The translations under genes and the position numbers were made by a program. Below are positions 6,934 to 34,297 of a stretch of DNA of 35,827 nt, in pieces. The notes under the pieces were generated by a model. That model did not search any database and was not told the origin of the DNA. It saw only the letters and a program-made list of their open reading frames with translations. Numbering within the stretch: position 1 is the first letter of the stretch; each line of letters begins with the position of its first letter. The stretch lies in IMG/VR virus record IMGVR_UViG_3300042525_000101, positions 1 through 35,827 of that record; one strand, written 5' to 3'. This DNA comes from a virus.

Positions 6934-8545
6934 CAACCCACTGCATCGTGAGGAGTTCTATCTGGACTTAATCCAGAAGTGCTTTGTGTCACGGGAGGAA
7001 CGCAAGGCTGATTACTCCGCACTTCGATCCTACTATTTGTTTGGCGCAGCGCCGGAAGAATCACCGGCGCTTTTTAATAAGATTTTCCCGCATATCGACC
7101 AGTTGACCTCGTTCCTGTACTCCGCAGAAACGACACGCTTTACCATTAACCTCGGCGCTGAAGTTAGTCCTCAAGAACACCGCAAGATTCCCGTTCTGAC
7201 GAACAAACTGAACGACGAATGGCTAAACAGCAACTGTGATCAGGTCTTCTCTACTGCCCTAACCTGGGCGCTGTGCTTTGGCACAACCTACGTCAAGCTA
7301 ATCGTCAACAATGGCGTTCACCCCTACATGGTGGAACCGTCTTGTATCGGCGTCTTGCGTGAGGATGTTCCCTACACAGACCGCCAAGAAGCGATAGCGC
7401 AGACCTACTACATCACCAAGTCAGAACTCTACGCTCGTCTGTACTCGCATCCTAAGCGTGATGAGATTGTCAAACGGGTCACATCGTCCTACCAGCCGCA
7501 GCAACTTGACATTCCTGATGGCATTGACCGCATCATTATGTCGCAGACCAACCCGACTATGACAGGTACAGTCAACCTAGACTTGTCCGGCATGAACCGC
7601 TACAAAGCGCGGGTGGCTGAAGACACGGTAGAGATGACGGAACTGTGGGTCTGGAACGATGACACGCTGGACTATCAGGTGGTTACGATTGCCGAACCGG
7701 ATGTCATCATCTATGACCGACCAGGTGAGCAAGTCTTTTTGAAAGGCGAACTGCCGTTCGTCCAGCTTTGCCCGAACCCAATGTACGACTACTACTGGGG
7801 TCAGAGCGAGGTGCAGCGTTTGGTGTTCTTGCAGTCGTTGCGGAACAAGCGCATGACGGAGATTCTAGACTTGCTGTCTAAGCAAGTTTCTCCACCAACG
7901 GCATTGATTGGCTTTACCGGCATCTTGGATGAAAAGAACTTTGCGTTGAATCGGGCAGGCGGCTTGCTGGCAACCGATATGCCTAACGCTAAAGTTGAGA
8001 AGATGGCTCCGCAAATGCCAGGTGACTTGTTCGAGGTAATCCGTGAAGTGGATCAGATGTTCGCGGAAGCGTCAGGTATTACAAGCGTACTCTCAGGCAG
8101 AGGGGAAACCGGCGTCAGAAGCCAAGGTCACGCCTCTCAACTCGCCCGACTTGGCTCCTCAAGAGCGAAAAAACGTGCGCTCATCATTGAAGATAGTCTG
8201 GAAAAAGTAGCCACACTGTTCCTAAAACTGATTCAAGCCTACGATGACAGCAAGCTGAAAGACGCTGAAGGGTTGTCATTTATAGCAGAACAGTTTACAA
8301 ACAACTATGTGGTGAAGGTAGACGCGCATTCCAACAGCCCAATCTTTACGGAAGACCTGCGACAGCTTGCCTTCAATATGTTTAAGGCTGGCGCTATCGA
8401 CAAGGAATCTTTGATAGATTTGCTTGAACCGCCGATGAAGCAGTTGCTGAAGGAAAAGCTGAAGATAATGGAAGCAAAGCAGGCACAGCAGCCGCAACAG
8501 CAACCGCAACAAAGTAAACCTGACCTAAAAGCAGTGGGGGAATAA
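6920..8545 (+). CDS. Portal protein (head-tail connector ring)
   Basis: The 541-residue length, the place between terminase and scaffold/capsid, and the sequence pattern all fit a podovirus-type portal. It has an early helical region with RSYYLFGAAPEE, a core with LPFVQLCPNPMYDYYWGQSE (about 280-299), a long helical stem region with SGITSVLSGRGETGVRSQGH (about 390-409), and a Gln/Pro-rich tail ending near 541. The portal forms the dodecameric channel through which DNA is packaged and ejected. ATG 6920 lies within the end of the preceding gene with no clear ribosome binding site, so coupling is likely. TAATG overlaps the next start. Confidence 0.88.
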   Translation: MRIPSNPLHREEFYLDLIQKCFVSREERKADYSALRSYYLFGAAPEESPALFNKIFPHIDQLTSFLYSAETTRFTINLGAEVSPQEHRKIPVLTNKLNDEWLNSNCDQVFSTALTWALCFGTTYVKLIVNNGVHPYMVEPSCIGVLREDVPYTDRQEAIAQTYYITKSELYARLYSHPKRDEIVKRVTSSYQPQQLDIPDGIDRIIMSQTNPTMTGTVNLDLSGMNRYKARVAEDTVEMTELWVWNDDTLDYQVVTIAEPDVIIYDRPGEQVFLKGELPFVQLCPNPMYDYYWGQSEVQRLVFLQSLRNKRMTEILDLLSKQVSPPTALIGFTGILDEKNFALNRAGGLLATDMPNAKVEKMAPQMPGDLFEVIREVDQMFAEASGITSVLSGRGETGVRSQGHASQLARLGSSRAKKRALIIEDSLEKVATLFLKLIQAYDDSKLKDAEGLSFIAEQFTNNYVVKVDAHSNSPIFTEDLRQLAFNMFKAGAIDKESLIDLLEPPMKQLLKEKLKIMEAKQAQQPQQQPQQSKPDLKAVGE

Positions 8546-8712
8546 TGGCACAAGATGCAATTTCACCAAAGGCTGACCAACCGAGAGCAGGCACAACGGC
8601 TCCGATGAAAGATTCACCCCGCCAGCCTAATTTGCAGTATCGGGTGCAAGGCGTAAGGAGTTTTGACCGTAGCCCGTCCACACGGACTTACGGACGTACA
8701 GTAAGGGGATAA
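8545..8712 (+). CDS. Hypothetical Arg/Pro-rich protein, 55 residues
   Basis: The frame starts at ATG 8545, sharing its first base with the portal stop codon (TAATG), and ends at TAA 8710-8712. The product begins MAQDAISPKADQPRAGTTAP and ends RSPSTRTYGRTVRG. It is basic, low in hydrophobic residues and probably disordered. No family is recognised. It lies just upstream of two even smaller basic frames, suggesting a group of DNA-binding or assembly peptides. Confidence 0.6.
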   Translation: MAQDAISPKADQPRAGTTAPMKDSPRQPNLQYRVQGVRSFDRSPSTRTYGRTVRG

Positions 8713-8730
8713 ACCTGTCAGGAGATGACG

Positions 8731-8772
8731 ATGTACAAGAAAATGAAGCGCGGTCGCAAGACTCGTCGGTAA
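8731..8772 (+). CDS. Basic micropeptide MYKKMKRGRKTRR
   Basis: This 13-codon frame has AGGAGATGACG directly upstream, a strong well-spaced ribosome binding site in an otherwise gene-free stretch. Eight of its 13 residues are Lys or Arg. A second frame of identical length and composition follows 67 bases later, which argues against chance. Binding to DNA, RNA or the capsid interior is a reasonable guess from charge alone. Frames this small are normally missed by gene finders. Confidence 0.5.
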   Translation: MYKKMKRGRKTRR

Positions 8773-8839
8773 TTCCTAGTAAGGAATGGGGTATGGCTGA
8801 CTTCCCCTGTTAAGTTGGCCGCATTTTGTGGAGGCTACT

Positions 8840-8881
8840 ATGGCACGCAAAGGTCGCAAAGGTCGTAAAGGCCGCAAGTAA
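8840..8881 (+). CDS. Basic micropeptide MARKGRKGRKGRK
   Basis: This 13-codon frame with GTGGAGG upstream encodes a near-perfect repeat of GRK. Eight of its 13 residues are Lys or Arg and three are Gly. Codons for the repeated unit vary (CGC/CGT, GGT/GGC, AAA/AAG), so the peptide repeat is not a simple DNA microsatellite and looks maintained at the protein level. It matches the preceding micropeptide in length and charge. A nucleic-acid-condensing or scaffold-associated role is a guess. Confidence 0.55.
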   Translation: MARKGRKGRKGRK

Positions 8882-8892
8882 TCCTTATGGAT

Positions 8893-8936
8893 TTCCCTAA
8901 GGGGCGGGGAGTTTAAATATACGCCCCTACTTGACA
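8893..8936 (+). promoter_or_regulatory. Hairpin and perfect -35 box before the first scaffold-region gene
   Basis: AGGGGCG (8900-8906 region) can pair with CGCCCCT about 15 bases later, and TTGACA (8931-8936), a perfect -35 hexamer, follows. No convincing -10 lies 16-18 bases on, so an internal promoter for the capsid genes is only possible. A small inverted repeat (AAGCT at 8938-8942, AGCTT at 8950-8954) follows the -35 box. The rest of 8882-8985 holds no gene I can support. Confidence 0.3.
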
Positions 8937-8985
8937 AAAGCTATTAAAAAGCTTACTTCTATCGCCAAAATTAATTGGGGTATTT

Positions 8986-9429
8986 ATGAGCGTACCACCG
9001 GATCAACTGATGCAAATGATGCGTAGCCAGCGTGGGGCTGAACAGCCTTCTCCTTTGGCCTCTGAAGCGTCTGCAACAGATCAAACCCCGCCAATGTCTG
9101 CCCCAATGTCCACACCAGAACCCAAAATGGGTAATCGTGAAGGCGCAATGGTCAACTTAGGCTTGGCGATGGACTTGATTCAACAAGCGCTGCCTGCGTT
9201 AGGTAGCGATTCGCCTGAAGGCGCTAAAGTCTTGTCTGCGCTACGCACTTTAACGGGTGTTATTGGCGGCAAGAAAGAATCCGTTGATGAATTGAAGCAG
9301 TCTGAGATTCTTCAGATGCTACAGACACTTCCGCAGGCGGGTGGCGCAACGCCGGAAGGTAAAGCTTTGGCAGCAGCGCCAGCAATACCTGGTATGCAGA
9401 TGCCAGGCGCAACCCCTCAACCTATGTAA
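8986..9429 (+). CDS. Hypothetical head-region protein, 147 residues
   Basis: The protein has a disordered Pro/Ser/Met-rich N-terminus (to about 50), a central helical block MVNLGLAMDLIQQALPALGS with SALRTLTGVIGGKKESVDEL (about 55-105), and a Pro/Met-rich C-terminal tail. Between portal and major capsid this architecture fits a scaffold-associated or head-assembly protein. I do not recognise a named family. A GGGG ribosome binding site precedes ATG 8986. Confidence 0.65.
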   Translation: MSVPPDQLMQMMRSQRGAEQPSPLASEASATDQTPPMSAPMSTPEPKMGNREGAMVNLGLAMDLIQQALPALGSDSPEGAKVLSALRTLTGVIGGKKESVDELKQSEILQMLQTLPQAGGATPEGKALAAAPAIPGMQMPGATPQPM

Positions 9430-9438
9430 GGAGAAATC

Positions 9439-9624
9439 ATGGATTTATTTAAGCCTCGCGGTGCAGCCGCACCTCGTAAAGCTACCGACAACAACCAGCA
9501 GAATGGTCAAATCGTTAATACTCCACGTTACTCGGAGTTTGGCGGTCTGAAGAACGCTGGCGCAGCAGGCAGCAAGAACAAGATGCAAGTTCAGAAGCCT
9601 GGTGACGGTAAGCGCGTTATCTAA
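9439..9624 (+). CDS. Hypothetical basic protein, 61 residues
   Basis: The product starts MDLFKPRGAAAPRKATDNNQ, is Gly/Asn/Lys-rich and predicted disordered. AAGGAGAAATC precedes the ATG, nine bases after the previous stop. It sits between two putative scaffold genes. It could be a minor head component or scaffold partner; nothing specific supports either. Confidence 0.65.
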   Translation: MDLFKPRGAAAPRKATDNNQQNGQIVNTPRYSEFGGLKNAGAAGSKNKMQVQKPGDGKRVI

Positions 9625-9642: not shown

Positions 9643-10173
9643 ATGTCATTAGAAGACCTAACACCAGAAGCCCGTGACGAACTGGCTTTGCTTGCAAAAC
9701 AACTGTCCGAGAATCCTGAAACCCGCAAAGACTTTCTGCGTCAAGTGCGGAAGGTTAAGCCGGAGATGCCGATTCCCGAACTGGAAATTGAAGACTACAC
9801 GCGCCATGCGGTAGATAAAGCGTATGACCGTGTAAATCAATTGGAAGCAAAGTTGCGTGAGCGCGATGCGATGGATGAACTCAACAAGCGTCGTAGCAAG
9901 TTGAAGTCCAAAGGTCTGATTGACAACGACGAAGATATTGAAGAAGTGGAGAAGGTGATGTTGGAAAAAGGCATTACTAACCACGAAGCAGCAGCAGAAT
10001 ACTGGCGCTGGATGCAGCAATCTGCCGCACCGACGCCAACGGGTTACAACCCGTCAACTATCAACAAGTTCGACCTGTCGAAATACTGGAAGAACCCTGT
10101 TGCTGGCGCACGGGATGAAGCAGCAAAAGCACTCAATGAGTTGCGGAAAAACCCGCGACCCATTGGCCTGTAA
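9643..10173 (+). CDS. Putative scaffolding protein
   Basis: The 176-residue product is highly charged and helical, with a coiled-coil-like centre (DKAYDRVNQLEAKLRERDAM around 68-87, then a charged helix) and a basic C-terminal segment NKFDLSKYWKNP, KALNELRKNPRP. Length, charge and position immediately before the major capsid gene are those of phage scaffolds, which nucleate prohead assembly and bind capsid protein through a basic C-terminus. AAGGGGATAGTC precedes the start. No protease motif is visible. The call rests on context and composition. Confidence 0.7.
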   Translation: MSLEDLTPEARDELALLAKQLSENPETRKDFLRQVRKVKPEMPIPELEIEDYTRHAVDKAYDRVNQLEAKLRERDAMDELNKRRSKLKSKGLIDNDEDIEEVEKVMLEKGITNHEAAAEYWRWMQQSAAPTPTGYNPSTINKFDLSKYWKNPVAGARDEAAKALNELRKNPRPIGL

Positions 10174-31993: not shown

Positions 31994-32295
31994 CAGAAAG
32001 GAATGGCATCGTCCTTGAATGGGTCATACTCTCTAGGCTTCTTGAGCGTAGCCTGTGGCGCTTCCATTGGTGGCTTGCGGTAATTAGGATCGGGTGTCCA
32101 GTTGTCCTGCGCCAAGCTAATCAGTTCGCCGATTCTGGTTGCCTTCTTCCAAGCAGCGATCTTGATTTGCTCACCTGCTTTGAAATCTCTGTCCACAGTG
32201 ATCACGCCCTTGTAATCAGGCTGTGCGCTGCCAGGCGCTTTCTTATCGTTCTGAAAGAGTACGCCCTTGCCTGGTTCTGATTGATGCTGTTTCAT
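31993..32295 (-). CDS. DUF736-like protein with SSB-type acidic tip, 100 residues
   Basis: The region GVLFQNDKKAPGSAQPDYKG (11-30) and the following ITVDRDFKAGEQIKIAAWKK resemble DUF736, a small OB-like domain. The last ten residues, DPFKDDAIPF, mimic the bacterial SSB tip (acidic followed by IPF) that recruits exonucleases, helicases and RecO-like partners. It lies between the RecT-like and nuclease genes, so a phage ssDNA-binding or protein-recruiting role is likely. No conventional SSB was found elsewhere in the window. Confidence 0.75.
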   Translation of the reverse strand: MKQHQSEPGKGVLFQNDKKAPGSAQPDYKGVITVDRDFKAGEQIKIAAWKKATRIGELISLAQDNWTPDPNYRKPPMEAPQATLKKPREYDPFKDDAIPF

Positions 32296-33101
32296 ACTTC
32301 CTCCAAGGTAGTGACTGCTGCCAAGACTTTGGTCTTTGCTGTCGGTGTCATGTTTTCAATAACGTGCTGGTTTGCCTTCTTAAATGCTTTTAGCTTCTCC
32401 AGCTTCTGCTTGTCATCAAGCTTTCCTGCTTTTACCTTTGAAATCATTTGGTAGAAAATAGTCTCCCAAGCGTCTAAGTTCTCCGCCAAGTCGTATGGTT
32501 CCTCTTGACCTGGAATGTACAGAGGCAAAAAATCTTCACCTACGGCCTTAGCTGACTTAATCTCGTCAACGATGTCTGCCGCACCCATGTCTTTGATCTC
32601 TGGTGCAGCAGTCTTTGCCGGTTTATCGTCAAAGTCTTGGACTTCTTCGACGCTATAGGTTCCAACCACACAGCCTGGATACACTGCTCTGATTCCTTCT
32701 GAGATGCAGCGCGATCTAAGCATTGCGCGAGGATACTTATGCCATCCCGAACTAGGCTTAACCAATCCAATATGCTTTGCCTGATCGATAGTCCAAGTAA
32801 CAGTAATAGACCCACCAGCAGGGTGGCTGAAAACACCAGAAACTCGTTCATCTGTGTAGTCCTCCCATTGAACTTTGCCGCCTGAGGTTTGGAAACGTGC
32901 CAGCATTGCGTCAGCCTTGAGTGCTGGTCTGCCTTGGATAATGTGATAGTCACGCGCAGCTATTGCAGGGTGCTGGCCTTCCGCTTGAGCGATCAGCATT
33001 AGCGCCATAGCTTCGTCTGCGGTCTTGACACCAAATAGACCTGACTTAGCCACAGCTAACGCCATGCGTTCTATGTCTTGCACTGGTACTAAGTTACTCA
33101 T
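32292..33101 (-). CDS. RecT-family single-strand annealing protein
   Basis: The 269-residue protein has the RecT-type pattern: AMALMLIAQAEGQHPAIAAR, DYHIIQGRPALKADAMLARF (about 28-67), a beta-rich middle with WTIDQAKHIGL, and SSGWHKYPRAMLRSRCISEG (about 117-136) followed by IRAVYPGCVVGTYSVEEV. The C-terminal third is helical and charged. RecT-like proteins anneal complementary single strands made by a partner exonuclease; the YqaJ-type gene two places upstream is that partner. Overlaps of four bases with both neighbours show strong coupling. Confidence 0.85.
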   Translation of the reverse strand: MSNLVPVQDIERMALAVAKSGLFGVKTADEAMALMLIAQAEGQHPAIAARDYHIIQGRPALKADAMLARFQTSGGKVQWEDYTDERVSGVFSHPAGGSITVTWTIDQAKHIGLVKPSSGWHKYPRAMLRSRCISEGIRAVYPGCVVGTYSVEEVQDFDDKPAKTAAPEIKDMGAADIVDEIKSAKAVGEDFLPLYIPGQEEPYDLAENLDAWETIFYQMISKVKAGKLDDKQKLEKLKAFKKANQHVIENMTPTAKTKVLAAVTTLEEV

Positions 33102-33382
33102 TTCTCATCTCCTGTCTTTTTAGCGTGAATACCACAATACCCCTTGCCATCAATTTCTGTGGACGCTCTCGATTCACATTGCACCCAGTGTTCGGCTAGA
33201 AGAATATCCCCTTCCGCTGTTTTCAATCTCCGTGCCTTTTTAACGCCTTGGCATCTAGGATTTCCACCAACAGGTTTTTTCTCTAATCTTTTACAAGTTG
33301 GACACCATGAATAATCGAATCTTTCTTCACCCTTCATGTATAGCCTTAACTCAACTTCTTCAGGCGTGTTTATGAATTTCAT
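33098..33382 (-). CDS. Zinc-finger protein, 94 residues
   Basis: The protein has CPTCKRLEKKP (27-37), a single Cys in NPRCQGVKKARR, then WVQCESRASTEIDGKGYCGI with a nearby His, providing at least five Cys and a His for one or two zinc sites. It sits between the exonuclease and RecT-like genes. Such proteins are usual in phage recombination operons, but the role is unknown. It overlaps the RecT-like start by four bases. Confidence 0.68.
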   Translation of the reverse strand: MKFINTPEEVELRLYMKGEERFDYSWCPTCKRLEKKPVGGNPRCQGVKKARRLKTAEGDILLAEHWVQCESRASTEIDGKGYCGIHAKKTGDEK

Positions 33383-33391
33383 CTCATCTCC

Positions 33392-34297
33392 TTATTTAAG
33401 TAGGAATCTGCGACTACCTGGGGTTTCCACGACAAACTTCTCATAGATGTCTGGCATGGCCTGTTGAAACAACTTGCTATCAAACTTACTGCTTGCTTTA
33501 GCGGTGCGCCAGGTTGCTAGGGTTCTGCCAGCTAAATCTGTTAAGGTAGACCTGTCTGTCATGTAGCCTCTGATAGCGACCTCTAGTGCTTCTGACTGAT
33601 CCTCTAGTTCCTTGATCTTGGCCTTGTAGGCTTTCAGCGCTTCACAGGCTTTCTCGACAGCGCCAGACGCGACAATCGTGGCTTCTGTGGACTCAGGATA
33701 GATAAGCTTCACGCTGTCGAGAGAATCAGGTTCTGGCAGGGTATTGGTGGCTACCATGCCCCAAAGTTTTGCCATTTGCCGAATCAGGTCTTCTTTCATC
33801 TCTGGCGTGATGTTGAAGTGATAGGTGCGGAAGGCTTGCCCACCAAACAGGACTGCAAGGTATATCTCGCTGACGTTATGTACGGCAGCTTCGTGGATGA
33901 GTTGTGCCATATCAGCAGCAGGTACCACACCTGTTTCTTCGTCGAACTTAGACATAACGCCAGCGTTGTAATTTTTGCATTCAACGAGCGTTCGTCCATC
34001 TGCACTGATGTAATCAAAGTGAGAGCGCATCCACGTTTCGACCGGATGTGAAAGTGCATAGTCAGCGTCCTTGAGTTCGATCTTGTACTTGTCTTGAAAT
34101 AGTCTGGCAATCGTGGGTTCCATCACTTTGCCCATTTGCACAGCTTCAATGTTGCTCAGATCAGGCGCTTCCTTTTTACCTAGCTTTTCTAGGATGACGT
34201 CAGCAGCTTTGCCATTAGCAGCTTTACGGCTGTCACCTGACCACCAAGCGGAGCGCCGGACTTCTGGCGCAAAATCAGATTCATTAGGACTTGTCAT
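33392..34297 (-). CDS. YqaJ-type phage exonuclease
   Basis: The 301-residue protein opens with a conserved RRSAWWSGDSRKAANGKAAD segment (14-33), then MGKVMEPTIARLFQ (55-68, Glu60), RSHFDYISADGRTLVECKNY (91-110, Asp95, Glu106, Lys108) and MAQLIHEAAV (130-139, Gln132). These are the nuclease motifs of the YqaJ/lambda-exonuclease PD-(D/E)XK family, which degrades one strand of duplex DNA to expose single strands for RecT/Bet. The C-terminal third is helical and ends in a basic segment. The start overlaps the 47-residue gene stop (ATGA). Confidence 0.88.
   Translation of the reverse strand: MTSPNESDFAPEVRRSAWWSGDSRKAANGKAADVILEKLGKKEAPDLSNIEAVQMGKVMEPTIARLFQDKYKIELKDADYALSHPVETWMRSHFDYISADGRTLVECKNYNAGVMSKFDEETGVVPAADMAQLIHEAAVHNVSEIYLAVLFGGQAFRTYHFNITPEMKEDLIRQMAKLWGMVATNTLPEPDSLDSVKLIYPESTEATIVASGAVEKACEALKAYKAKIKELEDQSEALEVAIRGYMTDRSTLTDLAGRTLATWRTAKASSKFDSKLFQQAMPDIYEKFVVETPGSRRFLLK

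Follow-up and report, generated by a model that had tools for sequence, protein, structure and literature searches.

What could two genes of only 13 codons each be doing beside the portal gene of a tailed phage? The IMG/VR virus record IMGVR_UViG_3300042525_000101, which we analyzed at its full length of 35,827 bases (hereafter the window), carries two such open reading frames (ORFs), here called MP1 (MYKKMKRGRKTRR) and MP2 (MARKGRKGRKGRK), with a gap of 67 nucleotides (nt) between them. The reading that we put forward as a whole, tentatively and as somewhat short of an even call, is that they are nucleic-acid-binding micropeptides that would end a transcription unit formed by terminase, portal and a basic ORF of 55 amino acids (aa; p55), with the translation of MP2 set by a pseudoknot, plausibly in an autogenous manner. 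A sequence-only reading of the same DNA had already pointed to the two frames. What is new relative to it is the covarying pseudoknot before MP2, together with a hairpin and a promoter-like box behind it.

The sequence-only reading had described two 13-codon frames with well-placed Shine-Dalgarno (SD) sites 67 nt apart, and all of these are present at the positions given in Table 1; its description of the gap as otherwise empty does not stand, since 8546-8985 also holds p55, which overlaps the portal stop. Across the two strands of the window, MP1 and MP2 are the sole ATG ORFs of 9-17 aa that are led by an SD and reach 40% Lys+Arg; a first-order Markov simulation gives 0.03 such ORFs expected per plus strand (at the 50% Lys+Arg level). 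This simulation, combined with the conservation in relatives and the in-frame selection described below, rules out MP1 and MP2 as chance ORFs.

Relatives were collected from IMG/VR with the portal protein as anchor, using three different queries, and with one scan for an MP1 DNA pattern; from the best 80 loci of each search, duplicate removal left 216 distinct loci that were readable downstream from the portal stop. At least two SD-led basic micro-ORFs are present at this place in 199 of the 216 loci (exactly two in 192, three in seven), one in 15 and none in two, a count that depends partly on MP1 itself, as some loci came from the MP1-pattern scan; the first set, found with the portal only, already showed both peptides in almost all loci of sufficient length. 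All matches of the pattern scan with enough flank sit between the portal and the 147-aa gene that follows MP2, and relatives of MP1 and MP2 adjoin the portal in the packaging-head module in all relatives read. The sequence-only reading had proposed to give way if frames or start sites were not kept in related genomes; across the 216 loci, frame, start and SD conservation held up.

Most of the one-ORF loci have lost MP1 and kept MP2 (L226, L230, L232, L271, L273, L302-L304, L315, L321 and L324). In L038 and L300 the MP1 frame is still there and fails the start-codon or SD filter, in L164 MP1 is kept with a weak SD, and in L096 MP2 is lost and MP1 kept. Where no ORF was counted, L322 has an MP2 frame with ATA replacing ATG, and in L062 p55 is followed by a different gene. 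Six of the seven loci with three micro-ORFs are expansions of the type MARKMKKGRKSCK / MRKMHKKSRKSKR / MARKARKGRKARK; the third item of L331, MRQNRRDYSRK, resembles the end of p55. In L330, L333, L335, L341, L342 and L343 the tandem has expanded to three micro-genes, about 13 codons each, with a single pseudoknot, before the last one.

How far does the pair extend beyond these loci? Two Manatee Spring records in GenBank contain both ORFs, and both leave them unannotated, which bears out the sequence-only expectation that genes of this size are missed by annotation; no other GenBank phage matched the portal or the DNA of the region. A comparable SD-led pair is absent from far relatives by capsid or terminase, namely Mx9, a TM7 phage, Stenotrophomonas BUCT555, Bradyrhizobium and Microcystis phages, Manatee Spring ct52p938 and Hydrogenobaculum phage 1. 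Because these lack it and the relatives share about 81% capsid identity or more where measured, we take the twin micro-genes to be a feature of one phage group, which is mostly freshwater.

The peptides themselves show the marks of coding selection. Among two-ORF loci there are 65 distinct MP1 and 44 distinct MP2 peptides, and the in-frame ratio of nonsynonymous to synonymous polymorphism (pN/pS) is 0.29 for MP1 (92 sequences, 13 codons) and, for MP2, 0.41 at 13 codons or 0.31 at 12, compared with 1.5-3.8 in the two remaining sense frames; a low value, about 0.4, is also seen for the antisense frame sharing third positions, which codon geometry predicts. Both genes vary most at third codon positions, lengths shift in whole codons (11-17 aa in MP1, 10-17 aa in MP2), net charge is held between +5 and +9, and only one distinct peptide ends in a residue other than Lys or Arg. 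The end KRGRKTRR is near-fixed in MP1, MP2 drifts inside a mainly Lys/Arg/Ala/Gly alphabet, and the Arg codons are mixed, with CGT, CGC, CGG, AGA and AGG all in use, so that what is conserved is the amino acid, not the codon. Could the ORFs instead be noncoding by-products of conserved DNA or RNA elements? The region does carry conserved structured elements, but the low in-frame pN/pS, the variable third positions, the retention of SD and stop, the length changes by whole codons and the position of the pseudoknot outside both ORFs all speak against this explanation, which we find barely credible. That MP1 and MP2 are real, selected peptides, as the sequence-only reading had proposed, is in our judgment almost certain.

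The frame relations of p55 to MP1 and of MP1 to MP2 are random across loci, and MP1 and MP2 are therefore independent, free-standing genes. The same randomness rules out a p55-MP1 fusion or stop readthrough, as well as MP1-MP2 readthrough with the pseudoknot as a recoding signal. As a separate observation, Cys is almost confined to the penultimate residue (11 of 12 in MP1, 7 of 7 in MP2), with Arg-to-Cys changes as in KSCR, KGCK and KVCK, and a quick portal tree requires a minimum of 4 such changes in MP1 and 8 in MP2.

The spacer between the two genes holds an H-type pseudoknot (GGGG UAU GGCUGACUU CCCC UGUU AAGUUGGCC): bases in the loop of a short stem form a second helix with a stretch further downstream. 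Under strict search settings the knot turns up in 136 of 155 distinct spacers versus about 60 shuffled ones, and a knot score of at least 24 is reached by 115 of the 155 versus about 11 shuffled. In a 37-spacer alignment made independently of the structure, although the structure was drawn by eye from the same sequences, 89.2% of cells pair, compared with 78.9% when shuffled and 41-59% with slid partners; double changes occur in 9 of the 12 knot pairs (43 cells versus 13 shuffled), and the covariation score of 0.335 (0.147 shuffled) is reached in 0 of 500 shuffles. Stem 2 takes the forms GGUUUCUC/GAGAAACC in L087, GGGCGCAU/AUGUGCCC in L193 and UGUCGCUC/GAGUGGCA in L179, and stem 1 the form GAGG/CCUC in L111. 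On this comparative evidence, the reality of the pseudoknot is hardly in doubt. A known RNA family was considered and rejected, as a search of Rfam 15 gave no family at or above gathering score in the window, with chance-level matches alone at 8540-9000.

To which of the two genes does the pseudoknot belong? Comparison shows that it goes with MP2, not MP1. A knot-only DNA pattern scan of all IMG/VR contigs returned 114 stretches, and in the newly fetched matches an MP2-type ORF begins 4-22 nt behind the knot, the sole exception stopping at the contig edge; their phage context is that of the same family. Stem 2 lies 20.9 +/- 2.4 nt from the MP2 ATG. The knot and MP2 remain when MP1 is lost, and the knot is gone where MP2 is lost (L096). 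After removal of upstream-region distance, a partial Mantel test gives r 0.42 (p 0.001) between spacer and MP2 and r 0.06 (p 0.095) between spacer and MP1, and shows no correlation between MP1 and MP2. Since a covarying pseudoknot lies before it, MP2 is tied to a cis-acting RNA, and we consider it likely that the pseudoknot acts on MP2.

Behind MP2 come a terminator-like hairpin (P4) and a TTGACA box, the latter a probable -35 element. TTGAC(A/T) is present in 205 of 213 loci, 170 of which also have a -10-like hexamer with at least four of six matches (best of four spacings); the window's own -10 is poor, with two of six. Because the hairpin and the promoter-like box follow MP2, we group the MP1/MP2 pair with the terminase-portal and not with the scaffold-capsid unit, an arrangement which suggests that the twins end the terminase-portal-p55 transcription unit, and that a separate promoter serves the 147-aa gene, scaffold and capsid. 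At 8931-8970, and at the same place in relatives, we also note a palindrome that overlaps the -10 in many relatives (GTTTGTAAGTGGTTACAAAC, GTTAGTAATTGTTTACTAAC, AACTGGGTTCTAATCCAGTT); its sequence differs between lineages and its symmetry is kept, as for an operator with a co-evolving repressor. This architecture bears on an alternative in which MP1 and MP2 would be leader peptides whose translation acts in cis, ribosome slowing on the basic codons controlling RNA folding or downstream expression while the free peptide has no role. Both are of typical leader size and structured RNA lies behind each; however, the knot and MP2 survive the loss of MP1, the TTGAC(A/T) box stands between MP2 and the next gene in nearly all loci, and conservation is of amino acids, not codons. 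We regard a leader function as very unlikely.

What, then, might the peptides do? Their composition (62% Lys+Arg in each of the two window peptides) makes it very likely that both bind nucleic acid, the likeliest target of which would be the phage's own DNA or RNA near the stage of head filling; their gene position points to a possible role in DNA packaging or head filling, a role that we propose with reserve. DNA condensation, capsid lining or scaffold binding, suggested by the sequence-only reading, are possible from composition and gene position only. Judging by its anatomy, the pseudoknot beside the MP2 ribosome site would set MP2 translation at initiation; surplus MP2 might bind and stabilize its own pseudoknot, thereby blocking initiation as an autogenous switch.

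The same composition and position had led the sequence-only reading toward virion micro-protamines: both peptides would be abundant products that enter the particle along with the genome or bind the inner capsid, neutralizing DNA charge like protein J of phiX174, and the pseudoknot would merely tune output. The charge of +5 to +9 on 10-17 residues, the strong SDs, the location in the packaging-head module and the drift of MP2 at constant composition would all fit, but the near-fixed KRGRKTRR end of MP1 exceeds the needs of charge alone, MP1 is lost in several lineages, and tailed phages usually fill their heads without such peptides; we consider this explanation rather unlikely. Protein J is longer than 20 aa and belongs to single-stranded DNA phages with another capsid, whereas here we deal with 10-17 aa, tandem genes, an attached pseudoknot and putative DNA binding in a tailed double-stranded DNA phage. 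Genome and capsid are not those of Microviridae, as the neighbors are, by PHROGs, a large terminase, a portal (by Pfam too) and a tailed-phage major head protein. Protein J itself, a very small DNA-binding protein of phiX174 and Microviridae that takes part in genome packaging, is likewise small and basic, and sets a precedent for such a protein acting in head filling (PMC13386984). Alternatively, the peptides could be directed at the host and, during takeover, bind its ribosomal RNA, its nucleoid DNA or some other target, which would be in line with a composition like that of small RNA-binding peptides (PMC8633718) and with the recurrent penultimate Cys; their location beside the portal in all relatives read, and not among takeover genes, makes this highly improbable.

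The closest regulatory parallel is gene 32 of T4, whose product gp32 recognizes a pseudoknot located ahead of the gene's start codon; a 2010 review considered the T4-type gene 32 knot as then possibly the sole viral pseudoknot known in translational autoregulation (PMC3014915). As in that operator, the leader upstream of the MP2 ribosome site contains an H-type pseudoknot, and the gene product may bind nucleic acid (PMC3014915). However, gp32 is large and binds single strands, an A+U-rich operator follows its knot, and 67 nt separate that knot from the start codon, whereas the MP2 knot lies about 21 nt from the ATG with no such A+U tract, the product has about 13 residues and regulation is putative; at 10-17 residues, MP2 cannot be a gp32 homologue. 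A different parallel comes from arginine-rich motifs (lambda N, HIV Rev, BIV Tat), which bind RNA specifically as short peptides (PMC8633718). MP1 and MP2 resemble them as short Arg/Lys-rich peptides that could bind structured RNA specifically (PMC8633718), but the known motifs are segments of larger proteins, and in MP1 and MP2 the entire gene product would consist of the motif, with RNA binding putative. Carried to its end, this would make MP2 a minimal ribonucleoprotein switch, a gene of 10-17 codons whose whole product is an arginine-rich RNA-binding motif recognizing a pseudoknot in its own mRNA and setting the supply of packaging micropeptide, with its companion MP1 duplicated or lost independently, a model that we consider unlikely. 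We do not claim membership of MP1 or MP2 in the T4 gene 32 or protein J systems.

Returning to our own reading, in which the pseudoknot sets the translation of a nucleic-acid-binding MP2, several points weigh against it. The spacer used in the partial Mantel test includes the MP2 SD, MP1 is less variable, and recombination with a border falling between MP1 and the knot could widen the contrast between MP2 and MP1 in that test. In two lineages, L105 and L331, both peptides are present and the knot is missing, and several lineages have mismatches in the middle of stem 2, at the place of the tandem G.U pairs of the common form. All the evidence for MP1, MP2 and the knot is comparative, and autogenous feedback, argued purely by analogy, is possible but doubtful.

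Regarding the wider neighborhood, the placement of the twins between portal and scaffold in the sequence-only reading stands for the upstream side, in that the portal lies upstream; p55 comes before MP1, however, and two further ORFs precede the likely scaffold (Table 1). Small basic ORFs flank the micro-genes in the head module, p55 on one side and a 61-aa ORF on the other, and neither has a PHROG or Pfam match. Elsewhere in the window, the minus strand carries an ArdC-type antirestriction protein at 1261-2106 (ArdcN domain and zincin-like metallopeptidase domain) and, at 32292-34297, a probable recombination pair, in which a weak RecT match (under the Pfam cut-off) adjoins a YqaJ-like exonuclease. 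A scan of contigs from metagenome-assembled genomes gave four contigs from different phyla, which is too weak for naming a host; two loci with both peptides (L429 and L431) lie in such genomes of uncultured beta proteobacteria, a weak host hint, and the other matches are to unrelated phyla.

Table 1. Features around the twin micro-genes, in window coordinates
Feature	Position	Strand	Remarks
p55, 55-aa basic ORF	8545-8712	+	from ORF list; upstream neighbor of MP1; relatives in many related loci
SD of MP1, AGGAG	8720-8724	+	6 nt to ATG; kept in relatives
MP1 micro-gene	8731-8772	+	13 codons plus stop
P1, small hairpin TTCCTAGTAAGGAA	8773-8786	+	directly 3' of MP1 stop; by eye in most spacers, missing from some loci
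H-type pseudoknot	8788-8820	+	stem 1, 8788-8791 with 8804-8807; stem 2, 8795-8803 with 8812-8820
SD of MP2, GGAGG	8830-8834	+	5 nt to ATG; kept in relatives
MP2 micro-gene	8840-8881	+	13 codons plus stop
P4 hairpin, AGGGGCG...CGCCCCT	8900-8928	+	terminator-like, no T run; stem varies widely yet stays paired in relatives
TTGACA box	8931-8936	+	probable -35 for 147-aa gene and capsid genes
147-aa ORF	8986-9429	+	next gene downstream of MP2; no family match
61-aa basic ORF	9439-9624		follows 147-aa ORF
Likely scaffold	9643-10173		by gene order alone; no family match

Our literature search found nothing comparable to such micro-genes in phages, although published catalogues of phage small genes were outside the search, so an earlier automatic listing is possible. 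Fremin et al. reportedly defined a computational class of very small phage genes in 2022; MP1 and MP2 would resemble these in their very small size, and the link to a pseudoknot would fall outside such a catalogue. If translated, MP1 and MP2 would be among the shortest phage genes under clear purifying selection, in a group that is common in IMG/VR and yet has only two relatives in GenBank, neither of which annotates them. They are small enough for each residue to be tested, and the link to the pseudoknot makes possible self-regulation by a peptide of about 13 residues readily accessible to experiment.
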